Origin: a virus
Length of the DNA stretch: 49,326 nucleotides
Direction: 5' to 3' (one strand)
IMG/VR virus record: IMGVR_UViG_3300025120_000092
Span: 1-49,326 of that record
Positions 2,644 through 43,242 of this stretch are shown piece by piece. Below the pieces are notes generated by a model. The model made no database searches. It was not told the origin of the DNA and worked only from the letters and a program-made list of their open reading frames with translations. Both the position numbers and the translations under genes were made by a program. Every line of letters starts with the position of its first letter. Positions within the stretch are counted from its first letter, which is position 1.

Positions 2644-2654
2644 ATAGAATCTCT

Positions 2655-5564
2655 TTATGAATTACAGTCACATGGACTACATGAATTACAACCACCCAAG
2701 ACTGGATATGCAGGGGAACTGTTGGCACAACTCACGCTTATTGTATATATGGGAATTCTTCTCACGGGTCGCAGTTTATTTTTATCGTTTACATCTTTCC
2801 TGTATGAACTGATCATATTACCATCGGGTACACTTTGTGCATACATTCGATGTCCCTGAGAAGCTTCAAACTGCCTACCAGTTATTTCTGATGTTCTTAA
2901 ATTAGGATCAGAAGTTTCGTAGTTACCAGTGCTTGGCAAAAATTTCGATCCGGAAGTAGATGTCCAATATCGTCCAGTCATAGGAATGTATCCTGTAGTC
3001 GAACTCTGCATCTGAGAATTTTTCCCAGTCATATAGTTCATCTCAACTGCACTAGGAATATACCAATCGGTAAAACCAGTATTGTTGCTTCTGTTAAAAG
3101 AAGAAATCTCGTAAGTTGCGTCACCATTTGTGTTTTGTATATCCCACATTATGGCATAGTAAAGATCAAAATTAGTTTCAACTGCATCTCTGAGTGCGGC
3201 TTCATTATCAAAGTCAAACAATTCGATGAGAGGATACCAATTTGAAGATGTTTCTATACCATGCTTCCATCTTGTATAATCAAAATCATCCCCTAAACTA
3301 GGACCAAGATTCCAAATATGTGTGTCTTTACTGGTATCATCATAAAGTCTGGTATTCAATAATCCATCTATTACAGATGTAGCGTATGAAGTCTCACCTT
3401 GTTCAAATCCTTTATTCATACCCCATGTCATGTCGTAGTTGTTGCTATTTCCTACGGATAGATCTTCTTTGGCAGTAACTAAAGCCCATCGACGATGAAT
3501 CGTAGCTGTGCCATAATACCTAGAGGCAAAGTAAGAGTACATTATTGAGCCACCCTCATCTACAACATTGGCCTCTTCCATTTTATCGTTCAATGAAGCA
3601 GAACCGTAATCACATAATCTAGGTAAAGGATTTCCAAATTGATCTCTTCCATGGTTTATGAAAGTTTTACTTATGTGTCCTTGTTCTTGTGCGTTCCATG
3701 TATTCTCGTAAAAATCTTTAAAGTAGATTTTAAGTGGAGACGTGTGATCACAGGGACAAGTCTGTTGGTTTTCTGTTCTTGGTCCAACAGAGGAGACATA
3801 ACTTCTTGGTGTGCCAGGAAACAACGAACCATTTGCTTGACAATATTTCTGGATTAAGTTAGAACCATCTTCATTTGCACCAGTGTGTGTTTCCATGCAG
3901 TATATGGGGGGTCCTTTTGCCAAGTCTGGATTATTTACAGTAGTACAAGTTGATGGTTCTCCAATGTAACCTACAAAAATACCTCCACCAAATTCATCAC
4001 CAACTCGAATACCATCCACACATGGTTGAGTGTTCAGTTGACAAGAATCTTCTCCTTGTTCGGAGATGGGAGGTCTGCAACACTCCACATAATTTGGTTC
4101 ATCAGGAAAATCGCATTGTGTTCCGATTCCATGAAAAACTCCAGACTCTGTGTCACCATCATTATCAATATCTTTATTCACAGCACAACCAAAAGCAGAG
4201 TCTTGTGTGCAGATTTCACCTCTACAACACGCACCGAAATATCCTTCGGTACAACAATTTACCCAATTGGGAGCGGTCTCATCACATGATCTACCCTCAA
4301 AGAATACACCATCAATTAGATCACAAAATTCAGCATCGACTGATAGACAAACCCCGTCTTTACAACAGGCTCCATCACCCGGACATTTGTTTGGACAACC
4401 ACCAGATTCTTGTATTTCTGCACAGGTTTTATCTGCAAATAATCCACCGATTTCATCACACTTTTCTTTTGTGCTTCTTACACATCCATCATTTACACAA
4501 CAAGAACCTTCAACAAAGCAGTTTGGACCTTCTTGTCTGTCTAAACATGTTACTGTATCAAACACACCTTCGATTGCATCACAAAAAGCTTTTGTAATAT
4601 AATCATCACAAGTTGTAGTAAAGTCTCCAGATTCTCTGGAACAATAACAACAAGATCCTATTGTATTCTCAAACAACGCCCCCAACTTTTGGGATGGTGT
4701 TTTTATCTTCTTTGTTCCAACTGTTCTATCTCTGAATTTAAACTGTGCCTGTATTTGATCTTTAGTTAAACCAGACTGATTTAGTATATTTGACATTGGT
4801 AGATAAACACCAAAGCATACACCTGCCACTGTTTCTAGTGGATCTCCACCGCCAAAGAAATTGTGTGTTCCATGAATTTTTTCACTTCCACTAGCCCCAC
4901 TAACACCCGGTGTTAAATCCTGTACATTCCAGTTCACCAACGAGGGCTGACTGCCGGGAACCTGTCCGGCATCAATTGAAGAAAAACTTTCTCTCACTAT
5001 CTTAAAAGTAAACCCAACAGATCCAGAACTTCCGGTGTTTGCAACAGGAGTGGGATCATAAGTTAAACCTCTTGCTCCCTTGCCACCAGTTCGTCCATCT
5101 CTAGTGAAGAAAACAATTTCTCCAGTGTTTCCAATTTTCCCAACATCATATGTTTTACCACTAAGAACTATTTCATCGGTTCCATTTGAACCATGAATTG
5201 GATGTGCGATTATATCACTACCAGAAATTCTTAATCGTTTGAATGTTGCAGTGTTTCCATCTACTGATTTTAGTATGCTGTTATAAGTACCACCATAAAC
5301 AGGAGCAGCGATAAAAATGCCTTCGGGTAAAATATCACCTGTAGCTCCGATTATATTATCAATGGTAAACTCTTTACCATCAGTAAGACTGATCTTAATT
5401 CCGGAAGCTGACACTCCAACTATGTTAGATATCCCAGCACCAGTATTACCCCTACTTCCTAGAGTATAGCCACCAGTAGTTCCAGTTGCTCCCTTTGCTC
5501 CGGTAGGTCCAGTAGGTCCAACAGGACCCGGTGCCACTATGATATGTCTACTACTTCCAGCCAT
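2655..5564 (-). CDS. giant collagen-like, Cys-repeat protein with Lcl/DUF1566-like C-terminal domain
   Basis: 969 residues. Residues ~11-35 are collagen-like (GPVGPTGPTGAKGATG). Residues ~285-515 hold at least six cysteine-rich repeats with patterns such as GACCKDGVC and GSCCVNDGC, followed by C...GG.F and a closing Cys. From ~520 a domain opens with GDEFGGGIFVGY and ends with WYIPSAVEMNYM, YWTSTSG and LRPVRRIP. These are hallmarks of the DUF1566/Lcl C-terminal domain first named in Legionella collagen-like protein. The start codon overlaps the stop of the upstream gene (TAATG), so the two are translationally coupled. It is probably a trimeric virion fibre or adhesin that reads host-surface polysaccharide; that role is inferred from architecture and position next to baseplate genes. 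Confidence 0.85.
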   Translation of the reverse strand: MAGSSRHIIVAPGPVGPTGPTGAKGATGTTGGYTLGSRGNTGAGISNIVGVSASGIKISLTDGKEFTIDNIIGATGDILPEGIFIAAPVYGGTYNSILKSVDGNTATFKRLRISGSDIIAHPIHGSNGTDEIVLSGKTYDVGKIGNTGEIVFFTRDGRTGGKGARGLTYDPTPVANTGSSGSVGFTFKIVRESFSSIDAGQVPGSQPSLVNWNVQDLTPGVSGASGSEKIHGTHNFFGGGDPLETVAGVCFGVYLPMSNILNQSGLTKDQIQAQFKFRDRTVGTKKIKTPSQKLGALFENTIGSCCYCSRESGDFTTTCDDYITKAFCDAIEGVFDTVTCLDRQEGPNCFVEGSCCVNDGCVRSTKEKCDEIGGLFADKTCAEIQESGGCPNKCPGDGACCKDGVCLSVDAEFCDLIDGVFFEGRSCDETAPNWVNCCTEGYFGACCRGEICTQDSAFGCAVNKDIDNDGDTESGVFHGIGTQCDFPDEPNYVECCRPPISEQGEDSCQLNTQPCVDGIRVGDEFGGGIFVGYIGEPSTCTTVNNPDLAKGPPIYCMETHTGANEDGSNLIQKYCQANGSLFPGTPRSYVSSVGPRTENQQTCPCDHTSPLKIYFKDFYENTWNAQEQGHISKTFINHGRDQFGNPLPRLCDYGSASLNDKMEEANVVDEGGSIMYSYFASRYYGTATIHRRWALVTAKEDLSVGNSNNYDMTWGMNKGFEQGETSYATSVIDGLLNTRLYDDTSKDTHIWNLGPSLGDDFDYTRWKHGIETSSNWYPLIELFDFDNEAALRDAVETNFDLYYAIMWDIQNTNGDATYEISSFNRSNNTGFTDWYIPSAVEMNYMTGKNSQMQSSTTGYIPMTGRYWTSTSGSKFLPSTGNYETSDPNLRTSEITGRQFEASQGHRMYAQSVPDGNMISSYRKDVNDKNKLRPVRRIPIYTISVSCANSSPAYPVLGGCNSCSPCDCNS

Positions 5565-8500
5565 TAACTATCCCTTATAACCTTTGGAACTCTCCAAAGT
5601 GAATCATCGCCGGATAGATATTTTGAATCACATCTAATCAAACGAACTGGTCTTACTTTGTATTTATTTTCTAAACGATTTGCTTTATATGTAAAGAATT
5701 GAGTAACATCTCCATTAGGATTGAAGTGCATTGCCCAAGCTTCGGATCCAGATATAATACTTCCATCACCCAGAACTACACCCTCACCACTCACACCGGA
5801 TCCTAAAGTTGATCCAGCATATTCATTAAAGGCTCCAGTTGATGTCCAGTGCCAACCATCAACTGGAACACCTTCATGTTCTAGTAGTTTTACATTTAAG
5901 TTAAAGTTGTAGTAGTCATCATCACTGGTACAGTTTGCAGCAATAAACGCCATCTCATCATGACTGGGTAAATACCAGTTCGATACTGCTGCTGGGTTTT
6001 CTCCTGTTTGTCCGTCAGAAGTTAACCCGTCAGATAATAATCTAGCAGCTCTAAAAGATGTCATCTCACCTGCGGTTGGACCAAACAAACTCTGATCAAA
6101 TCTAACATCGAACTTGCCATCACTATAGTTATCAGCGGAAACTAGTCGTATTGTATTTAACAGTCCCCAATTTCTTCTCCAATATCCATTATTGGCTTGC
6201 TTTGGATGTGTTGCAGCCCACAACTGAGGATCTGTCCTAGTTCCTCTTGCTTTTTCACACGAAACAAAAGTATTGCTGTTTAGGTTATTGAGTGACTTCG
6301 AATACTTGGAATCATACCAATAACCCTCATTACCAATATAACTTTCGTAGTTTGGTAAGTCATTATATTTTCCGTTTATTTCATCGTACAGTGGACCCCA
6401 GGCACACCCAGAGTTACCCCAAACAAACTCTTCTTGCGTAAAAGGACTACCGTAGTCTGACAGAGTTGAGCCAGAAATTGCAATCGGTTCTTTGGAAACT
6501 ATGAGAAGATATGAATCTGGCAGTGGTTCTCCTGCAACAGGCAAATCTGTTCTAAAGAAAGGGTTGCAATTACTAGCAGTTCCACCACTTATACCATATC
6601 CATTATAGTCATATGAACTGTAATAGTATTCAGAGTTTCTCATATTTCCATCAATCAAACTCATGGTGTTTCCCGGACTAAATGCATGTCTCGCACCAAG
6701 AAGTTTAGATCCATATGGGTTGTATAATCCAACAACCACACCTCCGGCAAATTCATCGCCTGGTTTTATTTGCTGTGAACCAATTATACCAGAGCAACTA
6801 CTTGTTGCTTTATTTGTGCAGTTTACTTGAGAACATGTGGTTCCTTTTCCTGCGTAGTATCCACCTGTTGCGATACAAGAATCTCCTGAGATTCCGCTAT
6901 CACAATCTCCTGATGATCGGCAGCAAGCCCCGGTTCCCCCATAACAGCGATTCTCTCCGTTTTCGTCAATACATTGAACCCCGAGTCCGTGGAAAAATCC
7001 ACCCGACTCTACACAATCATAGTGTGTTTTTAGTTCACAATCACCAACACCATTACAACATGCTCCGAGATCTCCAAAAGCAGAATTGCAACTAATATCC
7101 ACACAAGATATATCATTACCACCAAAAATGGTTTCTATATTTTCTTCCAAACCTAATGATAAACATTCATATGCAGTCATTTGCTGGCATTGTATATTCC
7201 CAAAGTCGGTGTTTTTTATACAACATGGACCTTTTACATTACAGATGTCACAAGTAGATCCTGTTCCACCAAAAGTCCCACCGGCAATACAAGTATCACA
7301 AGTAGAGCCAACTCCCTGAAAATAACCATTCGTACAACCATCTATTGTTCTAAGATCACAAGTTCCTGATGCACTACAACATGCCCCGACACCAGTTACA
7401 TCTTCAAATGAACCTTCAAAATTTCTAAACAGCGGATCATCTTGATTTGGGTTACATGAAAATACCAGTGAGTCTGATACAGATAGACCATCTAGAGTAA
7501 CACCACCAATAGAAACTGGACCTTGAGATACTAGGTTTCCATACCAAAGACCATCAACCCAAAAGAAATTGTAAAGTTGTTCCACACCAATGTTATTATC
7601 ATCTAAAGAAAAACATGGGACTCTATTGTACGGAAATACAACGTTTGTTCCAAATCTCTGATATGAATCATTGAAAGGATTATGGTGCCTTTTCATGAAT
7701 ATACTAATTGCATGACCTTTATCAGAATCTTCTGGAGGTAATATGTTAAAAACTACACGCCTTCCAGTAGGTACTGTGGTTGCTTCTACTATAAAGAAAT
7801 CTGCTTCTCTTGGATCTATATCAACTCGCCAAGTAAAAAAGTCTTCTAATAACGTGTAGTTATTGGAACTTGTTCCTATGATCTTAAATCTTTCTGCATA
7901 CCTTGATATCGCAGATTCTAGAGTTTCTTCTATAGGATCGTATTTTATTCTATCGCCAGTTGCAGCCGGACCAAGCTTAAAAGGACCGCTGACTCCCTCT
8001 GGTATAAATGATCTTATAATATCATTTTTAGTTGCTGCTTCATCTAGTTCTATGCTACCAACGAAACCAACATTATAGTCTATTACAATTTCATTTCCAT
8101 CAATAGTCTCGAAGACATTTAAACCAAATCCAGTAGCAGTTATAGGTCTAACTGAAATTCCTTGGAGTTGATCTCCACAAACACCATCATACAAACCAAT
8201 ACCAGTCGATCCTTCGGCGGTTCCTGTTATGAACTGGAAGGACGGACCTGTATAACCTACAAGCGCCCCGTCTGCGTACAACACAACACCAGAGCTAAAT
8301 CCCTGTTCTAGTGTAGATCCTGCTAAGGTAAATCCTAGTAGTTCGTTTCCAGTGCCACCACTGAGTCCATATGAAAGCGGTCCAGTATGTCCTTTGGGAC
8401 CACTAGGACCTGACAGTCCAATTGGACCTGTAGATCCACCGGACTGACCGGCGTGGATGAAGCTTACTGCACTGCTTCCATAAGTACCTTGTCTTGCCAC
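5564..8500 (-). CDS. giant collagen-like, Cys-repeat protein with Lcl/DUF1566-like C-terminal domain (paralogue)
   Basis: 978 residues, same plan as the downstream paralogue. Residues ~19-45 are collagen-like (GPIGLSGPSGPKGHTGP). A beta-rich region follows to ~365. Residues ~370-580 contain about six cysteine repeats (GACCSASGTCDL, GACCNGVGDCEL, GACCRSSGDCDS) each closing with a GGFF.GLG..C-like segment. The Lcl/DUF1566-like domain begins at GDEFAGGVVVGL near 582 and ends with WYLPSHDEMAFI, WHWTSTG and KVRPVRLI. The repeats align by eye with GACC repeats of planctomycete extracellular proteins. It lies between a fibre-like gene and its paralogue, with almost no intergenic space, inside the late virion block. 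Likely an exposed fibre or adhesin subunit; a tail-fibre adhesin and a host-attachment protein are not distinguishable from sequence. Confidence 0.85.
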   Translation of the reverse strand: MARQGTYGSSAVSFIHAGQSGGSTGPIGLSGPSGPKGHTGPLSYGLSGGTGNELLGFTLAGSTLEQGFSSGVVLYADGALVGYTGPSFQFITGTAEGSTGIGLYDGVCGDQLQGISVRPITATGFGLNVFETIDGNEIVIDYNVGFVGSIELDEAATKNDIIRSFIPEGVSGPFKLGPAATGDRIKYDPIEETLESAISRYAERFKIIGTSSNNYTLLEDFFTWRVDIDPREADFFIVEATTVPTGRRVVFNILPPEDSDKGHAISIFMKRHHNPFNDSYQRFGTNVVFPYNRVPCFSLDDNNIGVEQLYNFFWVDGLWYGNLVSQGPVSIGGVTLDGLSVSDSLVFSCNPNQDDPLFRNFEGSFEDVTGVGACCSASGTCDLRTIDGCTNGYFQGVGSTCDTCIAGGTFGGTGSTCDICNVKGPCCIKNTDFGNIQCQQMTAYECLSLGLEENIETIFGGNDISCVDISCNSAFGDLGACCNGVGDCELKTHYDCVESGGFFHGLGVQCIDENGENRCYGGTGACCRSSGDCDSGISGDSCIATGGYYAGKGTTCSQVNCTNKATSSCSGIIGSQQIKPGDEFAGGVVVGLYNPYGSKLLGARHAFSPGNTMSLIDGNMRNSEYYYSSYDYNGYGISGGTASNCNPFFRTDLPVAGEPLPDSYLLIVSKEPIAISGSTLSDYGSPFTQEEFVWGNSGCAWGPLYDEINGKYNDLPNYESYIGNEGYWYDSKYSKSLNNLNSNTFVSCEKARGTRTDPQLWAATHPKQANNGYWRRNWGLLNTIRLVSADNYSDGKFDVRFDQSLFGPTAGEMTSFRAARLLSDGLTSDGQTGENPAAVSNWYLPSHDEMAFIAANCTSDDDYYNFNLNVKLLEHEGVPVDGWHWTSTGAFNEYAGSTLGSGVSGEGVVLGDGSIISGSEAWAMHFNPNGDVTQFFTYKANRLENKYKVRPVRLIRCDSKYLSGDDSLWRVPKVIRDS

Positions 8501-14691: not shown

Positions 14692-15981
14692 TTAAGTACA
14701 GTTACCATCAGCAGCACACAGATTATCACAACTAGTTATACCTAAATTCGGATTAGTTACACCATCTATATTTAGGGGTAAAAATAACATATCAAAAACC
14801 TTCAAATCACCAATCGGAGTTTCACCGCTTACACCACTAGCCCAGTTTGGGTGTACAAACGAGGGCATATTATATGTATTACCAGAAATTGCATCGGAGC
14901 TGGGAGATCCAGAACATCCGGCTATTGCATCAAATCCAATTATATTTTCCATTGAAAATACAACATAATTACCTATCTGTGGGTTTTCGAAGAATCGAGG
15001 ATCTAGTCCATCGAAGGTAGATCCCACCACGGCAGGATTATAGTCATCTATTGTTGTTTGGAAAAATACTCTGGTGCCTATTGGGTGTAGAATATTATTA
15101 TAAGAAACTTCATAATCAGCCAAAACTGGAATATCTTCTGCTTGTTCTGTCAAAAGATTTACAGTGTATGTAAAATCATTAAAGAATCTGTCAGTCATTC
15201 TTCCGTAGTTAAGAAGAGCATTTTCGCTTGCTTCTGAACCAAAAAATCCACCAGAAGATCCAGTATTGGTTGCGATGTTACCAAGATTCAACCGCATCAT
15301 CTCAGTTTTTGGTTCTTGAACCTGAACACCATTTACTTTATCAAAAATTGTCGTAAAGAATCTCGATATTGCTTCTGGAGTTGTTTTTCTTCCATAAAGC
15401 TTATCTTTTATATTCTTAATTAATCTCTTGGTACTATTGACATCAACTAAATTTAAATTCACTAATCCGTCAACAAAGGTATTGATAAAATGTTGAGCAG
15501 TAGTCTGATCCATAAATTCAATATCTTGAATTCTTTCTATTGTATCTACTCTATACTTTGCCCCAGCATTTTTATCACAATATAACCAATTATAGTAATA
15601 CTGCAAAAATTTAACAAACAAAGTTTTTTCGTTACGATCTTCAACCTTCATCCAAAACGGGACAAATTTTCTCACATCATATGCAATACCACAACTGTCT
15701 GTTAATAAATTTGGTATTCCATCCGCGTCCAATACTGGACCAGATGAAGGTACTTCCGAATCACCGAGCTGATTGTCTATGCCATTATCGGCCAAAGGAC
15801 CTGGTATAACAGGTTTATTATTGTCGGAAGTGTCAGAACTAATAAAATTAACAAATTCTTCTATTACTTTATCTAAATCCAAATCTTTATTAAGGGACAA
15901 TTCAACTAAAGCCTGATCTTCTCTTTTAGAAGCCAGACTAGAGCCTTTTTTTACCTCATCTGAAAACGGAATTAGTGACAA
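14692..15981 (-). CDS. baseplate wedge protein (gp7-like)
   Basis: 429 residues. The central part contains FVPFWMKVEDRNEKTLFVKF followed by LQYYYNWLYC and later LIKNIKDKLYGRKTTPEAI. This is the typical signature of a wedge protein in T4-like cyanophages, where it follows gp6 in the gp25-gp6-gp7-gp8 order. That gene order is preserved here. Residues ~25-100 are a low-complexity acidic linker. The C-terminus carries an unusual cluster of Cys (CDNLCAADGNC) near residues 418-428, in keeping with Cys additions in neighbouring baseplate proteins. The gp7 assignment rests mainly on synteny; T4 gp7 is over 1000 residues, so the match is partial at best. Confidence 0.6.
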   Translation of the reverse strand: MSLIPFSDEVKKGSSLASKREDQALVELSLNKDLDLDKVIEEFVNFISSDTSDNNKPVIPGPLADNGIDNQLGDSEVPSSGPVLDADGIPNLLTDSCGIAYDVRKFVPFWMKVEDRNEKTLFVKFLQYYYNWLYCDKNAGAKYRVDTIERIQDIEFMDQTTAQHFINTFVDGLVNLNLVDVNSTKRLIKNIKDKLYGRKTTPEAISRFFTTIFDKVNGVQVQEPKTEMMRLNLGNIATNTGSSGGFFGSEASENALLNYGRMTDRFFNDFTYTVNLLTEQAEDIPVLADYEVSYNNILHPIGTRVFFQTTIDDYNPAVVGSTFDGLDPRFFENPQIGNYVVFSMENIIGFDAIAGCSGSPSSDAISGNTYNMPSFVHPNWASGVSGETPIGDLKVFDMLFLPLNIDGVTNPNLGITSCDNLCAADGNCT

Positions 15982-28071: not shown

Positions 28072-29319
28072 ATGGCCTCTTCCTCTATAACAATTACAGT
28101 ATTCGGCGGAACCGCAGGATTAGCAACAGACTTCAATACATCTGGAGCCGGATTTTCCGGAATCCATATCCCCATCAATAAACTTTCATGGGGTGATGAG
28201 AACATCTCCTATCGTGTAAGTGACACATATCCCCTGCCAGTTAAGTTCTACGGATCATCTGGCGATTCCATTTCCGTAACAGGAAAGGTAGAGGCATCAG
28301 GATCGTTCCCAATTATAAACCAAGGGGTTGGCACAACCAACGACCCAATCTATGCTCTTGTTGTTGCAGGAAACACATCAGGTGGAGGCCATGTTGGAGT
28401 TTCTGGACCAATAGAGGGTAGATCTGGTGGTTTCCCCGTTGGTGTTACTGGTGATATAACAATTGCAAATACTTCAGTCGCTATTGGTTACTCTGCTGGT
28501 GCTACACCAGTTGAGATCACCGGAGGACGCTATCTAAGCTCTCTAACGGACAAGGTGACTGTATCGGGTACAGTGGGTATTTCTGGAGGGAGAGCGTTAA
28601 ACACCTCTCAGGACTCTGTGAAGGTATTCGGTGCTGGTGGTGGTAACACCGTAGGTATTGAGATACATGGAGCAGGTTTCTCTGGAGACGCTCTCAAGGT
28701 TGCTATGGTTAACGCAGGTATCACTTTCACCGTGGGACTAAACACCCAGTTAGGTGTAACCAATGATGCGGCAGAAGGATTGTTTGTTCGTGGTATAACC
28801 GGAGCATACCCAATCACCGTCAAGGGTGAAAATGATGGTGCAATTTCCATTACAACAACCGATACTCTTCCAGTCTCAACTAGTGGGGCATGGAGTATAA
28901 ATGATGATAGAATCATCCAAGCCTTGCAAGGCGCAACTGCACCGGGTGTATCTAAGTTGGATTCGATCCAAACAAATACATCGGCTATAACAACAATATC
29001 CAGTAATATAACAAATGGCAGACTTTCCGCAAAAATCAGTGAAGTAACAAGACCAGGATCAATCATCTCTGGATCTAAGATAATCTCCACATCAGGATCT
29101 CAGTTTGCTAAGAAAGCACTCAAGTCTGGTGTAACGATAAAAGCAGCTCCAGATAATACTAATATTGTTTATGTTGGTGATAAGTCTGTATCAAATGCAG
29201 TGAATAACGGTTATCCACTCGAAGCAGGAGAAAGTTTGTTCTTGGAATGCAATAACTTAAGCTTGTTATTTGCAAGAACAGTGAGTGGTACAGGAACAAT
29301 TCATTACATAGGTTCATAA
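28072..29319 (+). CDS. virion structural protein, beta-rich
   Basis: 415 residues, Gly/Ser/Thr-rich with repeated GVSG/VTGD/ISGG turns that suggest a beta-helical or stacked beta-solenoid shaft. The C-terminal domain (SGVTIKAAPDNTNIVYVGDK and PLEAGESLFLEC with LLFARTVSGTGTIHYIG) is the small jelly-roll 'spike' module found at the end of many marine phage structural proteins. Shine-Dalgarno AGGAG, ATG 8 nt later. It begins a plus-strand pair with the next gene and likely is a fibre or decoration protein. Confidence 0.65.
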   Translation: MASSSITITVFGGTAGLATDFNTSGAGFSGIHIPINKLSWGDENISYRVSDTYPLPVKFYGSSGDSISVTGKVEASGSFPIINQGVGTTNDPIYALVVAGNTSGGGHVGVSGPIEGRSGGFPVGVTGDITIANTSVAIGYSAGATPVEITGGRYLSSLTDKVTVSGTVGISGGRALNTSQDSVKVFGAGGGNTVGIEIHGAGFSGDALKVAMVNAGITFTVGLNTQLGVTNDAAEGLFVRGITGAYPITVKGENDGAISITTTDTLPVSTSGAWSINDDRIIQALQGATAPGVSKLDSIQTNTSAITTISSNITNGRLSAKISEVTRPGSIISGSKIISTSGSQFAKKALKSGVTIKAAPDNTNIVYVGDKSVSNAVNNGYPLEAGESLFLECNNLSLLFARTVSGTGTIHYIGS

Positions 29320-34172: not shown

Positions 34173-34772
34173 TCAGCAGTCGTAATCTTTCCAGTTTGCG
34201 AGAAGTATACCCAAGTCTGCTGGATCAACGGTTCCGTCTGCGTTGAAGTCTGCGTCTGATTCATACACACCCCATTCACCGAATAAAATTCCCAAGTCTT
34301 TCCCGTTTATACACCCATCACCATCTATATCACCATACGGTTGTATCTCTACTGAATACGTCCACTCCTGCACATGTGGAACACCAATCTGTAATGCTGG
34401 CGATTCGTAATAGAATATTACTTGTCCACCATCGACACATACTTCATAGTCAGTAGAGTCTTGTGCTATAGTGTAAGTACCTATCCTGATAGGAACACGA
34501 TGTCTATACTTTATGACAAGAGAAGTTGATGATGTATTTGTGAGTGTGATTTGTCCTTGTGATGAAAATAAACTATCGACAATAGGTCGATTGTCATAGT
34601 AGTCAACTTCAGTAATTCTTGTTTCATATGCTGAACCGCCGGTGGTGTGTAACCATCCATCTTTGAGTTCCTCTCGATGTACATCGAAAAAAATCAATGG
34701 GGGACGACAAACCTCCTGCGCCACCGAAGTGACGCAGAAGGCTGCCATAAGTCCATAGATGAATTGCTTCAA
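34173..34772 (-). CDS. secreted protein with C-terminal dockerin-like pair
   Basis: Start taken as TTG at 34772, right after the stop of the tailspike gene (TAA-T-TTG). This gives MKQFIYGLMAAFCVTSVAQ, a good signal peptide; the ATG at residue 9 would cut it. 199 residues in all. The C-terminal ~52 residues hold two dockerin-type calcium motifs: GDIDGDGCINGKDLGILFGE then DADFNADGTVDPADLGILLA NW. These follow the planctomycete pattern (GD-N-DG-V---DL--LL--WG). The middle is a beta-rich domain of unknown function. It forms an operon with the tailspike. Odd for a phage: a signal peptide and dockerin suggest export from the host and docking to a surface partner (inference). Confidence 0.65.
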   Translation of the reverse strand: MKQFIYGLMAAFCVTSVAQEVCRPPLIFFDVHREELKDGWLHTTGGSAYETRITEVDYYDNRPIVDSLFSSQGQITLTNTSSTSLVIKYRHRVPIRIGTYTIAQDSTDYEVCVDGGQVIFYYESPALQIGVPHVQEWTYSVEIQPYGDIDGDGCINGKDLGILFGEWGVYESDADFNADGTVDPADLGILLANWKDYDC

Positions 34773-34773
34773 A

Positions 34774-36690
34774 TTAGTTATTCCACTTCTCAAGTAGATC
34801 ATCGTTGTTAGCATAAGAGTTCCACTTATGACTTGCCAACTTAGATGCGTTTCCTTCGTAGTGAACACCCGTAGCAGGACTCGTCCAAGGTAGAGTCATT
34901 GTTTCGGGATCGAATCGCAAATCTGATGGTGTACCCTGCCCAGATCCCGATGTAGCATCAGGTGTTGGCATGAAATACTCTTCCTTGTCAGGTGTACGGT
35001 AGTTGTCTCGCCACATGACATTGACGTACATGGGAGATCCGTAACCATTTTCAAATGGGTATGAAACTTCTAGTTCTTCTCCATTGTACTTGTTCGTGGT
35101 TTCACTACCATTCCAATTACCCTTACCAAACATGAGATTGTCTTGGAATAAACAGTTTCGAGTGTTGTGGCAACCCCATGCAAACATTCTTGCTCGTCCG
35201 ACGAGGAGACTACCAAGTCCTTCGGGATTCTCGGGATCTTCTCGTCTTGCTCCGGGGTAATAATCATCATCGATTCCTGCCCAGTGAGCAATCTTATTAC
35301 CTACGAATGCAAAGTTTCTGAATTCAGATCCTTCTACATCGTTTCTTCCGAACGTACCGAACAATTGCTGTCCACCACTACGAGTCCATTCAGTGACGTA
35401 TCGAATGATGATATTCTCCTGAATGACTACCTCATCATGTCTGCCTCCAGTGTGAGTCTGAATCAAGTCTACATGGACTCCACTTACTGGTGGAGGACTA
35501 CCATCATCATCATTGAAGAACCCGTGACGAGATGTCGATAGATTCGACACAAGATGAGAATAACCAGTGAGAATGATGTCACCAACGATGAGATCATAGT
35601 GTGACTGGATGTCAACGATACGCATTGCGGGTTGGAAGTGTCGCTTCCATGTAGAACCGATCGAGAAGATATGCGGTCCACTCTTCGTCATGGCACTGGT
35701 GGTAAACTCACCAGTCTCTTGATCCATGTACCCAGACTCTCTACTCTTTCCTTCGATCAAGCAGTTGTCGAAACAGTACATGCTTTGTCTTCCACCGTTG
35801 AGTATTTCAGCACCATCTTCTACTGTAGCGGGTACGATGTGGACATTTTTGAAGTAGAGTTTACACCTCCATGTGCCGTTATGCTGTCCGACGATAGGGC
35901 ATAGTTCTGGATCGACTGCGGATTCGATAGTCACCCACTGATCATCCGACATACCCGAAGAGTTTACGCTTCGCAGATCACGGTCTTCGCTGTTCGATGC
36001 AAGTTTATGTTCACCTTCGAGTAGTTTGATCACACGACCTGCGTTGGTGTCACCCTTAACAAGACCGTGATATGCTGCGTGATGAATCGTAGCAAATGGA
36101 TTCTTTCTGGAACCATCACCAGTCTCATCGTTACCCTTGCCACTTACAAAGAGTGCGGGATCATAGCCAGGGCCCCATGTCTGGTTGTTTGGGAATACAT
36201 CGAGTCCACAGATTGATGGGTAGTCAAGGAATGAACCCTTCAATTCAAGGGGAATGCCAACCTTAGGATAAACCTTTGCACTGATGCGAAGTCGTTCTCC
36301 GTGGGTGAACTGTACGGGATTGAATTCAAAGAACCATTCGAGTTCGCCAGTCTCTTCGTTGAGACGCTCCTCTGTAGCAATGCCAAGAATGTTTGAGTAT
36401 TCTTGTTTTGCACCCCAGTTGGAGAGCACCTTTACGAGATCTCTTGGTCCAACTGTTCCCCAGTTTGCGAGGATATAGTTCAAATCTCCGACGTTTACTT
36501 TACCGTCTAGATTAAAATCTCCACTGAGTTGTGTTGGGATCTTGTCAGCATCATGTAGATAAAATTCTACTTTCTCGATTCCTTCGAGGGCGTATGCTGC
36601 TACACCGATCTTCGTTTTACCACTCACGTCAATATACTGTGGTCTGGTCCAATACGCAATTGCTGTTTCGTTCTCTGGTGTGTAAGACAT
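34774..36690 (-). CDS. beta-helix tailspike-like protein with an embedded dockerin-like motif
   Basis: 638 residues from the ATG at 36690, chosen for its Shine-Dalgarno AAAGGAG; a longer ORF starts further upstream at 36771 without one. Residues 57-93 contain a dockerin-like unit (GDFNLDGKVNVGDLNYILAN then LVKVLSNWG). From ~180 the segment FVSGKGNDETGDGSRKNPFA and the following stacked turns point to a right-handed beta-helix of the pectin-lyase/tailspike type. It may bind or cut polysaccharide. GC and codon use look higher and more C/G-ending than in late baseplate genes. The downstream secreted gene is coupled to it. Confidence 0.65.
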   Translation of the reverse strand: MSYTPENETAIAYWTRPQYIDVSGKTKIGVAAYALEGIEKVEFYLHDADKIPTQLSGDFNLDGKVNVGDLNYILANWGTVGPRDLVKVLSNWGAKQEYSNILGIATEERLNEETGELEWFFEFNPVQFTHGERLRISAKVYPKVGIPLELKGSFLDYPSICGLDVFPNNQTWGPGYDPALFVSGKGNDETGDGSRKNPFATIHHAAYHGLVKGDTNAGRVIKLLEGEHKLASNSEDRDLRSVNSSGMSDDQWVTIESAVDPELCPIVGQHNGTWRCKLYFKNVHIVPATVEDGAEILNGGRQSMYCFDNCLIEGKSRESGYMDQETGEFTTSAMTKSGPHIFSIGSTWKRHFQPAMRIVDIQSHYDLIVGDIILTGYSHLVSNLSTSRHGFFNDDDGSPPPVSGVHVDLIQTHTGGRHDEVVIQENIIIRYVTEWTRSGGQQLFGTFGRNDVEGSEFRNFAFVGNKIAHWAGIDDDYYPGARREDPENPEGLGSLLVGRARMFAWGCHNTRNCLFQDNLMFGKGNWNGSETTNKYNGEELEVSYPFENGYGSPMYVNVMWRDNYRTPDKEEYFMPTPDATSGSGQGTPSDLRFDPETMTLPWTSPATGVHYEGNASKLASHKWNSYANNDDLLEKWNN

Positions 36691-36828
36691 TTGAACAGTC
36701 TCCTTTCGTGGCATGAAGGCACCCTTAAAGATGATCTCATAGCCTAAACTGTTAATCAGATTCTCCGGCATCTGATTTCGCCGTTGTTGTTAATGACGCA
36801 AACAACTCGCGCAATATCCAAATCATTA

Positions 36829-36836
36829 TATTTATG
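36829..36836 (-). promoter_or_regulatory. late-promoter-like CATAAATA
   Basis: On the minus strand ACATAAATATAATG upstream of the tailspike; CATAAATA is one base from the T4 late -10. Located at the 3' end of the lysozyme gene. Confidence 0.55.
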
Positions 36837-37221
36837 TAATATTAGACTTAACTGACTGCCAATATTTCACTGTGGAACTTTTTTTGTAACCGTTTGGTCC
36901 GCCGTTGTGGATTCTTGCGCGATCTTCATCGGTTGGTTTTCTACCTAATCTTTTTTCAGTACAGTACCTATTCCAGTATGCCAACATTATTTTCTCTGAG
37001 TAGTCTTTATCTACACAGTCTAAATAAACACCACCAATGCTGGGATTGTGTTCGACAGCATCTTTCCAATAACACTGAAGAATTTGATATGGACCGATTT
37101 CACCAGCAGCACCTACTGCTGTGGAGTCACAGTTACTTTCCACAATACAAATAGATTGCATTAACTCATCGTGAGCTGAAGCTGTTCCGAGAACCAAGAT
37201 GGTGGAGATGAGTATTTCCAT
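36832..37221 (-). CDS. invertebrate-type (destabilase) lysozyme with signal peptide
   Basis: 129 residues. Starts at the ATG overlapping the upstream stop (TAATG), which gives MEILISTILVLGTASA, a short signal peptide; upstream in-frame M's lie inside the preceding gene. The body reads ICIVESNCDSTAVGAAGEIG and PYQILQCYWKDA, then YSEKIMLAYWNRYC and ARIHNGGPNGYKKSSTVKYW. ARIHNGGPNG is a hallmark of the i-type lysozyme/destabilase family, and the VES Glu fits the catalytic Glu. Likely a secreted peptidoglycan hydrolase for lysis or entry. Unusual family for a phage. Confidence 0.8.
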   Translation of the reverse strand: MEILISTILVLGTASAHDELMQSICIVESNCDSTAVGAAGEIGPYQILQCYWKDAVEHNPSIGGVYLDCVDKDYSEKIMLAYWNRYCTEKRLGRKPTDEDRARIHNGGPNGYKKSSTVKYWQSVKSNIT

Positions 37222-37838
37222 TAGTTGTAGTGTGATACTAGAGCGTGATCTGGAAACCATTCGGGTAGGGGATCGTGAGGTTTTCGGTAATCACAACGGC
37301 CGATACCTTTTTTCCACTTTGCGAATCTAGCCTTTTCCCCGATGTAATACTTTCTGTAGGCACTAACGGCATCCCCCTCCACCTTGTACTCATCAGGCAT
37401 TGCCTGAGCAAAGGGAGTAACCTTGTGGTAGGTGTCTTGATCAATGTTCTCGGGCCAATCGGCCTTACAGAATTCAATAATAGATTCTGACGCATGACGA
37501 CGATCGTATCTTCTTGTATATTCCCTACAGAGTTGGAGGCCGTGGGAAACCAACCACATGTAGTTACCCAATGTTTCGCGGGCCCAGATTGTACATGGGT
37601 GATTTACCATTGTAGCATGGTACAGAAACTTATGATCTGGCATGTCACGATCAAGCCAATGCGTCCACCTTTTGATTCGCCGACCAGTTTTTGAATAAGC
37701 GACATACTCTTCTCCGTCAAGCATTCGATGAATGGTCGAAAGCATCTGTGCAGTTTCGACCGGCATCTTTACAATGTGCTTGTCACACATGTGGTTTGCG
37801 GATGTCAATGGTGAATCGTGAAGTACAAAAATGTTCAT
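37221..37838 (-). CDS. conserved marine-phage protein of unknown function
   Basis: 205 residues. It opens MNIFVLHDSPLTSANHMCDK with HIVKMPVETAQMLSTIHRML. The central NHPCTIWARETLGNYMWLVS is followed by HGLQLCREYTRRYD. These 'DKH.VKM..E.AQ.LS' and 'NHPC..W.R.....Y.WL..HG' patterns define a conserved family in T4-like cyanophages. No known catalytic set is recognised. It overlaps the lysozyme start. Confidence 0.65.
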   Translation of the reverse strand: MNIFVLHDSPLTSANHMCDKHIVKMPVETAQMLSTIHRMLDGEEYVAYSKTGRRIKRWTHWLDRDMPDHKFLYHATMVNHPCTIWARETLGNYMWLVSHGLQLCREYTRRYDRRHASESIIEFCKADWPENIDQDTYHKVTPFAQAMPDEYKVEGDAVSAYRKYYIGEKARFAKWKKGIGRCDYRKPHDPLPEWFPDHALVSHYN

Positions 37839-39340: not shown

Positions 39341-41269
39341 TTAAACTTTACCTTTTCCTGTGATGTCTTCAGGTTTTATCTTGCCGGTCCGGAACGACTG
39401 AGAAGCCATTCGTTCGGATGCACTGTTTCCACCTTGTCCATCGACATACTGAGTCATTATGTAATGACCAGGTGCTGGATAAATTCTTGCTTCTTTATCA
39501 AGAATCTCCATTCCTTCTTCTGGGTTGTTTGCAGAGATGGAAGCACCTAACTGGAAACCCTGCCACGTTAGTTCATCAGGTTTAAAGGCAAACAAACGAC
39601 CCTTACCTGTGATGTGTCCGTCAAGAACACTTATGGCTTCTTGATAATCTCGGGTTGCTCCAGCAAACGCATCAGTCGCAATGGTGGAATTTCCACCGTC
39701 GATCTTGAAGTCATTTACCGTGGCTCCTGCTCCAAATTTGAAGTGGTTTGTCCAGTACCCAGATCTGGTTATGAAGTCATTCGGTAGGAAAGGAGGTTCG
39801 TCGGGATTGGCTGGATATACGTTACCACCAGTGTTTTCAATTCTCACATCGTAGTATGGATTGAAGTCATGTAAAGTAAGTTCACCAATAGTGTATGGTC
39901 CATGTCTGACTACTCTCTCATCATTGTGGAGATCATGTCGGTTCCACACTAAGAAGGAGAGTTGTGAACCCAACTCTAGAGGATAATTTCCGTTGACGAA
40001 GATATCCTTTTTGTCTCTCCTACCGCCAAGTCCAAATGACGGGAAGTCATCGAAGCTCTGAGTATGAACAGACTGTGGATAAGCATCTAGCTTATCGATA
40101 TTACCAGAGACTTTATGTCTTGCGACATGTCCAGCACCACTTCTGTCTGTATCCTGAGCGTTACGAACTCTAGGTGCATAGATGAAGTGTGGAATGTCTC
40201 CACTAGCCTGTACGGTTAGGTTATGTGGACCTGTTCTTCCGAGAACTTTAAATACCTGACCCACTCCACTTCCTATGAATTGAGTTGTATTTAATTGGGG
40301 ACCTTCTTGAATGCCGAGATCGAAAAAACGACGACTTCGGGTTTCATGAAGGCTAGATCCGTTTGGACCAGAGAAGTTTCTTTCATCAGTCCAAACTTCT
40401 ACAACACCGTTGTAGAACTGGGTGCGACCACTTCCTACGCAATAATAGTTTCTGACATAAGAGTCCCAAAGTGTAACTACGTTTCTGGATGAATCAAACA
40501 CACTTTCTGCTTTGATTACTAACTTAGGAACGAAGCCAGGTCCAGTTGTGCCATTGCTTTCTGTTTTACTCGGTCCTGAATGATATTGACCAGCCGAAGG
40601 TCCATCAGTTGCAAAGTATCCATTGGACATGAATTTATCTACGACTGTTCCGATTGCTTTACTTAGAGGAGCCGCAATAGACATGCCACCAAGAGGCCAA
40701 GAGAATGACTCAGCAGGTATCTGTACTTCTTTGCGGCGAGCTACCTCGATGGGGGTGCCGTTCGCATGAAATTCCTTGCTTGTCTCATAGCTAAATTTAC
40801 CACCATATGTTTCAGAAATTACTAACTCACGAAGTTCGCCATGAAGATCACCGGCGTTAGTGGCAGTGGTTCCTTCCCACATTCCGGTGTGTCCACCTTG
40901 GTTTGGCCAACCAACCTGAGCACTTCCACCTGCGATGGAACCATAACTGATACCTGCTGGGAAACCACCACAGAAACCACCATAAAGACAAGGAGTCTTC
41001 GGCCAAGGGCCTCCAGCTAATCCTATATCTTCTGCATCGGGGAGTAGAGTAAAGAATACACTGTCTCTACCTCGGGGCGCTCTTGTGGCACCTTCAAAGT
41101 AGTAACCAAGACCACCACTCGAACCCTGAGTGTATCCACTAGTAGTTCCTAATACTTTAATAAACCAGTTATCTTTATTATGCCACTGATATCCAGTGAC
41201 GCCGATGGCGTTGCCACCTGTTCCGCTTGTAACGCCGGTTCTTAAACCTGACCAGTAAAAGTCTGCCAT
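39341..41269 (-). CDS. fibre/spike-like virion protein (paralogue A)
   Basis: 642 residues from the ATG at 41269 (MADFYWSGLRTGVTSG) preceded by AAGGAG; the longer ORF start is in the conserved leader and was rejected. Over the first ~170 residues it matches the other copy (MADFYWSG, DNWFI, YYFE.ATR.PR, GPWPK.PCLYGG). The rest is beta-rich with WNR/ENTGGNVY segments. No enzyme motif. The terminator and duplicated leader show each copy is its own transcription unit. Likely a spike or fibre subunit. Confidence 0.6.
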   Translation of the reverse strand: MADFYWSGLRTGVTSGTGGNAIGVTGYQWHNKDNWFIKVLGTTSGYTQGSSGGLGYYFEGATRAPRGRDSVFFTLLPDAEDIGLAGGPWPKTPCLYGGFCGGFPAGISYGSIAGGSAQVGWPNQGGHTGMWEGTTATNAGDLHGELRELVISETYGGKFSYETSKEFHANGTPIEVARRKEVQIPAESFSWPLGGMSIAAPLSKAIGTVVDKFMSNGYFATDGPSAGQYHSGPSKTESNGTTGPGFVPKLVIKAESVFDSSRNVVTLWDSYVRNYYCVGSGRTQFYNGVVEVWTDERNFSGPNGSSLHETRSRRFFDLGIQEGPQLNTTQFIGSGVGQVFKVLGRTGPHNLTVQASGDIPHFIYAPRVRNAQDTDRSGAGHVARHKVSGNIDKLDAYPQSVHTQSFDDFPSFGLGGRRDKKDIFVNGNYPLELGSQLSFLVWNRHDLHNDERVVRHGPYTIGELTLHDFNPYYDVRIENTGGNVYPANPDEPPFLPNDFITRSGYWTNHFKFGAGATVNDFKIDGGNSTIATDAFAGATRDYQEAISVLDGHITGKGRLFAFKPDELTWQGFQLGASISANNPEEGMEILDKEARIYPAPGHYIMTQYVDGQGGNSASERMASQSFRTGKIKPEDITGKGKV

Positions 41270-41320
41270 TCTTCTGCTCCTTGATGCATCAAAGGACTGT
41301 AGTCTTTCTATGTATAATCC
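41270..41320 (-). promoter_or_regulatory. duplicated 5' leader with late-like promoter TATACATA (copy A)
   Basis: On the minus strand TATACATA (41316-41309) and the following leader with a TTGATGCATCAA palindrome overlapping the Shine-Dalgarno. This ~50 bp is almost identical to copy B at 43151-43201. Confidence 0.7.
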
Positions 41321-41322
41321 AA

Positions 41323-41355
41323 CAAAAGTAAAAAGGGGAGAGTATTGCACTCCCC
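41323..41355 (-). terminator. rho-independent terminator
   Basis: On the minus strand GGGGAG-9-CTCCCC followed by TTTTTACTTTTG. It separates the two paralogous fibre genes, directly upstream of copy A's leader. Confidence 0.85.
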
Positions 41356-41386
41356 CCTCTTAATTACTTTAGATTTAACGGTTAGA

Positions 41387-43150
41387 TTACCTACCCTTAG
41401 AGAACTGGACGAATGCTTGAGCACCCTTGGTAATCGTACCTTCACTACCAGTGTTACCACCCTGTTCACCCAACCACTGGAGTGTTACAAACATTCCGGG
41501 AGTGTATTGAACTCTGGTGTTGGGATCTACAACGCGAGCACCTTCTTCACCGACAGCACTTAGTGGTCCCACACTAGCACCAATCTGGAAACCAGTATAG
41601 GATGGGTCTGAAGGTGAATAAGTTCTTAGAACAACCGTATCATCTCCACCATTTGATCCGGGGACATTGGGTTGTGTATCAAGATCCGCATCAACTATGG
41701 TGATGAATGAATCTGATTTATTACTCCCGGCGTTCTGAATATCTGTACCTACCCACAGTGATCCACCATCGAAGTTTAGGTTTTCAATAGTAACTCCGGC
41801 GTTTAAGTTAAACTTATTATTGTTTGAGTTAAACAGGTCCCGAAGCTGTTCTACTGATGAATTAGATTTATTTGAAGGAATACCGAGTTGCACACCATAG
41901 AAGGTATTGGAACTCTTCATGTTCAGATTGGTAATTGTCCAAGGTCCATTTTTCTCAGAATTTACTCGGTGAACTAAGTTCAATGGACTCTGTGGAACCG
42001 AGTTGAGCCCCTCACTCGTCCCCTGAACGACCACCTGCGCGTCCCGTTCTTGTGGGTAAATGTTTGCTGTGGTGATGTCACCTGCAACTTGGTGTTTACC
42101 TCTATACGAATCGCCGCCTTCGGCATTATATCTAAATCTTGGTGCATAGTCAAACTGAGGAATTGCACCACTTGCTCCGATGAAGATATCATATGCTCCG
42201 GTGAGTCCGGTTATTCTGCATAGACTACCAAAACCAACATTTACTAGTTTGGTGTTCGATCCCTCGGGTCTCGCCGTCACGAAGCCAGGACTCTCGACCT
42301 TTTCACCTTCGGGTGTGTAGCTAACATATGCATCAGCCAGTGCTCTGTCTTCGACATACAGTATGACGTTACTGTCATTCAGTCTCATTTCACCGTCTCT
42401 TGTGACATAACATCGTCTGATGAAGGAATCGTCAGAGAGGGAGACTAAGTTATATCCGTCATGTCGTAGTTCAAATGTCTTGATCGCTAAGCCAGAGGGA
42501 AGTTTACCGGGTCCAGTTTCACCACTGTTACCAAACGTAAAGGTGGCTCCTGCCTGATTCGATCCAGACCAACCGTTGGGTGGGAAGAAATCAAGACGAT
42601 CACCGATGCTTCCAAGTGGATAACTGAAAGAATGCACAGGTAACTGGTGAGCAGAAAGTTCTTTTCCGGTAACTCTTCGAGAAGTCGGGGGATCCATATT
42701 AATAAACTGACCACTGTATCGTTCTGTAACTGTGACCTGTCTGAGGTTACCAGTAACCTCAGCGGTTGATCCAGTAGAACCTAACCAATATCCAGTTGCA
42801 CCAGCGTTAGGAGAACCGGGTCCACCACCGTTGATGTGGTGGGGGAATGCTCCACACCATCCACCGTAGAGGCAGGGGTTCTTTGGCCAAGGTCCGCCTT
42901 GAAGTCCGGCTTCAGGATCATTTCCTAGAAGATCAAAGAAAACTTTATCATCTTTTCTTGGTACTCTTGTTGCGGATTCAAAGTAGTAACCCACATCAGC
43001 ACTGCCACCAAACGAGTTTCCAGTTGATCCTGCAACTCTAATGAACCAGTTATCTTGATTATGCCATTCGTAAGCAGTCAAACCCTTCGGAGTTCCTGCT
43101 GTACCACTTGTAACGCCGGTTTTTATACCTGACCAGTAAAAGTCTGCCAT
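41387..43150 (-). CDS. fibre/spike-like virion protein (paralogue B)
   Basis: 587 residues from the ATG at 43150 (MADFYWSGIKTGVTSGTAGT) with AAGGAG. It shares its N-terminal ~170 residues with copy A (GGPWPKNPCLYGGWCGAFPH) but diverges afterwards, as expected for a conserved mount and a variable receptor-binding part. Central and C-terminal parts are beta-rich (repeated G-T-V-S). Its own terminator and duplicated leader make it a separate unit. Role inferred from composition and duplication. Confidence 0.6.
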   Translation of the reverse strand: MADFYWSGIKTGVTSGTAGTPKGLTAYEWHNQDNWFIRVAGSTGNSFGGSADVGYYFESATRVPRKDDKVFFDLLGNDPEAGLQGGPWPKNPCLYGGWCGAFPHHINGGGPGSPNAGATGYWLGSTGSTAEVTGNLRQVTVTERYSGQFINMDPPTSRRVTGKELSAHQLPVHSFSYPLGSIGDRLDFFPPNGWSGSNQAGATFTFGNSGETGPGKLPSGLAIKTFELRHDGYNLVSLSDDSFIRRCYVTRDGEMRLNDSNVILYVEDRALADAYVSYTPEGEKVESPGFVTARPEGSNTKLVNVGFGSLCRITGLTGAYDIFIGASGAIPQFDYAPRFRYNAEGGDSYRGKHQVAGDITTANIYPQERDAQVVVQGTSEGLNSVPQSPLNLVHRVNSEKNGPWTITNLNMKSSNTFYGVQLGIPSNKSNSSVEQLRDLFNSNNNKFNLNAGVTIENLNFDGGSLWVGTDIQNAGSNKSDSFITIVDADLDTQPNVPGSNGGDDTVVLRTYSPSDPSYTGFQIGASVGPLSAVGEEGARVVDPNTRVQYTPGMFVTLQWLGEQGGNTGSEGTITKGAQAFVQFSKGR

Positions 43151-43201
43151 TCTTCTGCTCCTTGATGCATCAAAGGACTGTAGTCTTTCTATGTATAATC
43201 T
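43151..43201 (-). promoter_or_regulatory. duplicated 5' leader with late-like promoter TATACATA (copy B)
   Basis: TATACATA at 43197-43190 (minus). Leader matches copy A, including AAAGACT/AGTC(C)TTT hairpin and TTGATGCATCAA. Preceded by a terminator (43202-43242). Confidence 0.7.
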
Positions 43202-43242
43202 AACAAAAAACAAGAGCTAGAGAAATTAATCTCTAGCTCTTG
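43202..43242 (-). terminator. rho-independent terminator with perfect 13-bp stem
   Basis: On the minus strand CAAGAGCTAGAGA-6-TCTCTAGCTCTTG followed by TTTTTTGTT. It ends the transcript of the HTH gene and lies just upstream of the copy B leader. Confidence 0.9.

Follow-up and report, generated by a model that had tools for sequence, protein, structure and literature searches.

Two adjoining minus-strand genes with dockerin-type loops

The 49,326-base virus record IMGVR_UViG_3300025120_000092, analysed here at its full length and hereafter called the window, is a T4-like phage contig in which T4-like baseplate, tail tube and gp32-like genes are present. Its positions 34173–36690 correspond exactly to two adjoining minus-strand genes, which encode a tailspike-like protein (TSP, 638 aa, 34774–36690) and a predicted exported protein (SEC, 199 aa, 34173–34772), both of which contain loops of the dockerin type; all SEC and TSP features given below lie on the minus strand. 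Dockerins are calcium-binding plug modules, familiar chiefly from bacteria with enzyme assemblies at the surface. They provide the plug in a protein–protein lock that is among the tightest known and has been studied mainly in cellulosomes. TSP starts at an ATG (36690) with AAAGGAG (36700–36706) 9 nt upstream and has its stop side at 34774, and SEC starts at a TTG (34772) 1 nt past the TSP stop and ends at 34173. This TTG is the first possible SEC start in the relatives L003 and L005, and a longer open reading frame (ORF) with a GTG start (34868–34173) was rejected as an artefact of start choice. A six-frame search of the window for a strict dockerin loop pattern, D.[NDS].DG.[VIL][ND]..D[LFI], gave three matches, one of them in TSP and two in SEC. 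Residue shuffles within 33 ORFs gave no match to this pattern in 2000 shuffles, and a chance origin of the loops is thus excluded. Neither TSP nor SEC gave a tblastn match in 50,697 phage records, and a search of plasmids with a SEC dockerin was likewise negative.

SEC ends in a two-loop type I dockerin

A sequence-only reading of the window had described the gene after TSP as a signal-peptide protein with a two-unit dockerin-like domain, and this description holds. SEC begins with a predicted signal peptide (residues 1–18, MKQFIYGLMAAFCVTSVA, 34719–34772) that has K2, a hydrophobic core and SVA-Q; the other SECs with the 5′ end covered have likewise hydrophobic N-termini, and SEC is predicted to be exported from the cytoplasm. 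The N-terminal domain that follows (34335–34718) is predicted to be mostly beta, has no known relatives and gave no match in a Pfam search, and the cysteines C22 and C112 are kept in all family members with both ends covered. The C-terminal module (residues 147–199, 34176–34334) contains two predicted calcium loops (loop 1, residues 148–159, 34296–34331; loop 2, residues 175–186, 34215–34250), the ligand positions of which are conserved. Two calcium loop-helix repeats in tandem, with five ligand positions each, are found in 10/10 tabulated SECs, a set that excludes L002 (the same as the window along its 166 aa), L010 and the near-identical L022, L028 and L029. Positions 1, 5 and 12 of loop 1 are D in 10/10, position 3 is N in eight and D in two, and position 9 is N in seven and D in three; in loop 2, D at positions 1, 5 and 12 and N at position 3 are found in 10/10, and position 9 is D in nine and N in one. 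The distant SEC of L010 has loop 1 only, the second loop being lost. Within loop 1, positions 11 and 19, neither of which is a calcium ligand, vary most, and position 11, a recognition position in cellulosomal dockerins, is the most variable.

The identity of the module was assessed with a profile of 11 SEC members (A6), which matches 14 PDB chains at E ≤ 0.01, the ten best of them being dockerin chains or enzymes that bear a dockerin. By molecule name, twelve of the 14 represent cellulosomal enzymes or dockerins from such enzymes, with the CelS dockerin 2MTE (5.9e-7) and then 1DAQ (6.3e-7) as the best matches, and the remaining two, 5LXV and 2JNK, are presumably dockerin-bearing as well. Pfam Dockerin_1 matches 10/11 SEC members at E ≤ 0.1. 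As a protein, the window SEC scores 19.6–20.3 bits against this model, under the cut-off of 22.9, and a six-frame search with neighbouring stretches summed gives 23.1 bits, above that cut-off. The type I assignment, for which the sequence-only reading had pointed to a profile search, is in this way upheld. As in the type I dockerin (PF00404; C. thermocellum CelS, 1DAQ/2MTE), SEC has a pair of loop-F-helix units with putative calcium ligands at loop positions 1, 3, 5, 9 and 12, and its module stands at the C-terminus, here of a predicted exported protein, whereas it differs in being phage-encoded, in an F-helix that ends in W(G) and in having no known scaffoldin. By its profile matches and its ligands, the SEC C-terminus is identified as a true two-loop type I dockerin. 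Cys154 in loop 1 (34311–34313) is a putative partner of the terminal Cys199 (34176–34178), as 4/12 SECs (3 distinct) have both the loop-1 and the C-terminal cysteine and 8/12 have neither. We infer that they form a disulphide clasp, which would also support export.

TSP carries a one-loop dockerin derivative within an Ig-like domain

TSP is predicted to comprise an Ig-like N-terminal domain, interrupted by a dockerin-like insert (residues 57–93, 36412–36522), and a right-handed beta-helix-type body. The insert had been read from the sequence as a calcium-loop pair, which the homologue alignment corrects to one loop (residues 58–69, 36484–36519, D-x-N-x-D-G-x-x-N-x-x-D) with its helix, followed by a half-repeat that has lost its loop (residues 81–93, 36412–36450, helix GPRDLVKVLSNWG). 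As the second half is reduced to a helix, TSP would have one calcium site and not a pair. In 16 homologues the successive loop ligands are D in 16/16, N in 14 and T in 2, D in 16/16, N in 8 and D in 8, and D in 16/16, whereas the second loop is gone in 16/16, yet L89 and W92 are kept. This set left out the same-contig or near-identical L014, L015, L016, L022, L025, L027 and L028, and also L011–L013 and L029, which lack the full N-terminus. Conservation of the calcium ligands in homologues, by which the sequence-only reading had proposed to judge the loops, is therefore found in both proteins (16/16 TSPs and 10/10 SECs). Because the second loop is missing throughout, a point in which the half-repeat also differs from type I dockerins, we regard the TSP insert as a dockerin derivative and not as a canonical dockerin. 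The TSP protein alone gives no dockerin match in Pfam and its six-frame Dockerin_1 match is sub-threshold (12.8 bits); the TSP profile cross-matches the SEC dockerins of other records with E of 2.8e-7 to 2.9e-4. The Ig-like domain is uninterrupted in two TSP homologues on contig L114, for which blastp gave E values down to 2.5e-20 and 1.2e-8; in one of the two, a dockerin-like half is found at the N-terminus instead of within this domain. An Ig fold is suggested for the domain itself (Big_7 in 1/14 members, E 0.21). Virion proteins of tailed phages have optional Ig-like accessory domains that are gained and lost in loops, whereas the module here is a predicted calcium-binding dockerin.

With respect to the body, a profile of 14 TSP homologues (A3) matches the tail spike gp124 (8FQC, E 0.0011, profile positions 189–325 only) in the PDB and, as a second tail match, the tail fibre 9RKV (E 0.048), and 12/14 members match PHROG 4577, ‘tail protein’. 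The beta-helix body is thus related at the profile level to known spikes, the match lying at the beta-helix start, whereas TSP differs from gp124 and other beta-helix tailspikes in having a dockerin inserted into an Ig-like collar and in the hydrophobic N-terminus of half of its homologues. This signal-like stretch opens 8/16 homologues and is lacking in the window TSP, and no virion-binding domain was recognised at the TSP N-terminus. The beta-helix tailspike of the sequence-only reading is in this respect only partly secured, and because half of the homologues have a signal-like N-terminus, ‘tailspike’ is a profile-level call. Positions 183–217 of A3 (LYVSxxGNDxTGDG of TSP) also match 4ZYA, a chain of cytoplasmic asparagine-tRNA ligase, at E 1.3e-4.

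Dockerin modules recur in other phage proteins

In a search of 20 records with Dockerin_1, G017 (33.3 bits) and G003 (26.5 bits, summed) each revealed a matching protein of baseplate type, and Pfam Baseplate_wedge was also found in both proteins. A scan of this wedge protein family comprised 19 loci, of which L084 and L086–L088 were left out of the comparison and L085 is too distant to place. Five distinct sequences carry the dockerin cassette, namely that shared by L059/L070/L071/L072 (L059 and L071 being one contig) and those of L073, L074, L075 and L076. It is lacking at the corresponding position, which is flanked by VLNGxF and the PIIG/RLVD segment, in L077–L080 (one sequence), L081, L082 and L083 (4 distinct). 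The wedge dockerins are of the complete two-loop form. Their Dockerin_1 scores lie above the cut-off in L062 (30.3 bits), L074 (26.3 bits) and L075 (26.9 bits), where Baseplate_wedge is also above its cut-off on the same protein, and below it in L073 (21.0 bits) and L059 (15.7 bits). The wedge homologue of the window itself, probably 14692–15981 (blastp E 2.7e-6), is without a dockerin. Judged from sequence, the dockerin is a plug-in module in this group of uncultured tailed phages and has been gained or lost in two virion-type proteins.

A second phage family encodes exported proteins with a C-terminal dockerin (33.9 bits), in which 12 of 14 loci match across the dockerin and two are cut by the contig end; together with SEC and the wedge proteins, these possess full two-loop dockerins with all ligands. 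A subtilase with a signal peptide on a 109-kb virus contig (L034:6741–8153; Peptidase_S8, 138 bits) also ends in two dockerin loops (Dockerin_1 18.2 bits, under the cut-off). At the level of sequence, recurrent acquisition of dockerin modules by phages is well supported.

In the second family (L035–L044, L089–L101) the gene for the dockerin protein stands beside collagen-like fibre genes. The middle domain of these proteins in L035–L044 was considered by eye as a cohesin and rejected, as no cohesin match was obtained in Pfam or PDB profile searches. A 321-aa frame of G018 (L061:11537–12499, minus strand) has two separated EF-hand-like loops (DWDGDGEITFNDL and DFNGDGVLTQEDH) and no signal peptide. 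An exported protein of L114 (1188–1856, plus strand) ends in PAPGAIALLGMAGLMGRRRR, clear by eye as a PEP-CTERM tail, which scored 11.2 bits against a Pfam cut-off of 20.7 and was rejected; if true, it would mean the use of another host sorting tag.

Linkage, composition and gene neighbourhood

A full TSP is found in 15/20 records searched, and in seven of these 15 (G000, G002, G004, G005, G012, G013 and G016) SEC follows TSP after 1 or 3 nt. As G012 and G013 are near-identical, these represent at most six independent cases, and from the 1–3 nt gap TSP and SEC are probably translationally coupled. G008 encodes a distant SEC at 1.1 kb from TSP, and in the other seven records no SEC was found downstream of TSP with at least 6.8 kb downstream covered. 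Three records (G017, G018 and G019) have SEC without an adjoining TSP, one SEC contig is podovirus-like by eye, and G001 and G003 end inside SEC and are not informative on linkage. The presence of the signal-peptide gene in relatives, on which the sequence-only reading had staked its claim, is in this manner borne out in part, with SEC adjoining TSP in seven of the 15 TSP records and also occurring without TSP.

That reading had also noted a codon use of the pair distinct from the baseplate genes. The codon distance from the baseplate genes is clear for TSP (1.54; maximum of 300 resamples, 1.09) and amounts to ∼3 SD for SEC (1.35; resamples mean 0.90, maximum 1.37), but ordinary non-baseplate genes deviate equally (gp32-like, 1.64; 28072–29319, 1.53; 37221–37838, 1.48). 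As several ordinary genes deviate as much, the deviation is poor evidence of recent transfer, and codon use was rejected as proof of it.

Just upstream of TSP, the window encodes a destabilase-type lysozyme with a signal-like N-terminus (36832–37260, minus strand, 55.8 bits). Trypsin-like proteases with lipoprotein-type N-termini lie beside TSP/SEC in L003 (9104–9829, minus strand; Trypsin, 52.8 bits), L005 (8537–9268, minus strand) and L007 (9988–10746, plus strand). Porin-like outer-membrane proteins are encoded in L003 (12584–13696), L007 (11523–12551) and L024 (10620–11648), all on the minus strand; that of L003 matches NCBIfam ExtI (26.4 bits) and plasmid porins of Halomonas and Sulfitobacter (27–30%), and a search of the 50,697 phage records with the porin-like protein gave no match. 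Elsewhere in the window, cysteine-rich GACC...C repeats are numerous in three long, collagen-like tail-fibre genes (positions 1–8500), and positions 39341–43213 hold two tandem paralogues with a common MADFYWSG near the N-terminus and no family match; genes resembling these paralogues adjoin TSP in L009 and L003.

Host candidates and published precedents

The sole genome match of the phages, L058 (NYWV01000053.1) from a Porticoccaceae metagenome-assembled genome (MAG), was rejected as a host link, since it is itself a phage contig; it is very close to L007 by eye and probably misbinned in the MAG. The L003 porin-like protein was rejected as a host clue because its relatives are distant proteobacterial plasmid porins only, with none in phages. 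A search of open-licence literature on dockerins in phages or viruses gave no report of a dockerin in phage baseplate or exported proteins, and the nearest case, according to PMC5967307, is a siphophage protein with predicted structural likeness to PDB 2WZ8. A ‘planctosome’, a cohesin–dockerin assembly on the outer membrane, has been hypothesised for freshwater Phycisphaerae (Nemodlikiaceae), as described in PMC6461901; the likeness to the phage proteins lies in non-cellulosomal cohesin/dockerin modules on exported proteins, whereas the ‘planctosome’ is a genome-based hypothesis for bacteria and the words phage and virus are absent from its main text. The planctomycete link made in the sequence-only reading has this published hypothesis (PMC6461901) behind it, and a planctomycete-like host is thus a candidate.

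Possible roles of the phage dockerins

The reading that we prefer, tentatively and at slightly less than an even chance, is that host-derived modules serve extracellular proteins of the phages as docking tags, the targets of which may be cohesins of a planctomycete-like host. The phages would probably have taken the dockerins from their host and added them to proteins that act beyond its cytoplasm. SEC would be exported by the host Sec system and fold in an oxidising compartment, where its C-terminal dockerin would bind two calcium ions and attach the protein to a partner of the cohesin type on the surface of the host. TSP would be a beta-helix adsorption or depolymerase protein, the Ig-like collar of which would carry a one-calcium dockerin derivative, either for the same surface or for packing.

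Several results speak against such docking. The single-protein Pfam scores of SEC members lie just under the curated cut-off, and the NCBIfam GC-type dockerin model (dockerin_GC, NF041540), which the window SEC resembles in the C-terminal dockerin of a predicted exported protein and in ending in Cys, gives 15.8 bits against a cut-off of 29. The AlphaFold2 models are too poor to use (pLDDT 49 for SEC and 29.7 for TSP), TSP keeps one calcium site with a loop-less half that argues against a standard dockerin surface, and SEC does not adjoin TSP in 8/15 TSP records. Cohesins, which the sequence-only reading had proposed to look for in the phage, were above the cut-off in 0/30 phage records (20 + 10), most of which are fragments; a weak cohesin stretch (13.9 bits) occurs in a 672-aa open frame of G018. 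A genome-contig search linked no host genome to the phages.

The main rival, which we consider quite possible, holds that the dockerin modules are calcium-stabilised structural or spacer elements, like phage Ig-like domains, without a cohesin partner. It is kept alive by the degenerate TSP copy, with its single calcium site and bare helix inside an Ig-like loop, and by the cohesin not found in the 30 records; wedge proteins that have gained and lost the module at a single site are also consistent with it, as is a phage lysin that, according to PMC4022735, uses a loop-F calcium site for activity. Docking is favoured over this rival because SEC, the wedge proteins and the second family keep the full two-loop form with all ligands on exported or baseplate-borne proteins, because SEC loop 1 variation peaks at position 11, which like position 19 is not a ligand, and because unrelated phage proteins received the same tag. 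In dockerin-tagged enzymes the tag is at the C-terminus, and its C-terminal place on the exported phage proteins is the same, which also speaks against a structural role.

It appears unlikely that the two genes are a free exoenzyme set directed at the glycocalyx in late infection, with TSP as an exported depolymerase in place of a virion spike and SEC as its partner. The signal-like N-terminus in 8/16 TSPs, the place of the pair just after the lysozyme-like gene (PF05497) of the window and the trypsin-like lipoprotein and porin-like protein near the pair in relatives agree with it, but the window TSP has no signal-like stretch and the TSP profile matches tail spikes; for SEC, this proposal is compatible with docking. 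That the dockerins bind another phage protein, with the virion or a phage-made complex as the place where SEC or TSP is assembled, is suggested by the probable translational coupling in seven records, but is improbable, as SEC is found apart from TSP in 8/15 TSP records and elsewhere without TSP, no phage cohesin was found in the 30 records, and a signal peptide is ill-suited to virion assembly in the cytoplasm. Passive carry-over of functionless host gene fragments, or chance EF-hand-like loops, would accord with the distinct base composition and codon use of the pair, but is already disfavoured and highly improbable given the 0/2000 shuffles, the ligands conserved in diverged homologues and the repeated independent placement in different genes.

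Within the docking reading, a more specific proposal, which we hold to be doubtful though possible, is that the wedge and tailspike dockerins serve as receptor-binding modules, and that exported dockerin proteins are plugged, in the course of infection, into outer-surface complexes of planctomycete-like hosts to remodel the surface or to block later phages. Complete dockerins that come and go in a baseplate protein, lie within a tailspike collar and are borne by exported phage proteins would represent a new kind of module for phage virions, and their occurrence would be an indirect but testable sign of a cohesin–dockerin assembly on the surface of uncultured hosts. The ‘planctosome’ idea thereby becomes testable, with the phage modules as ready-made baits.

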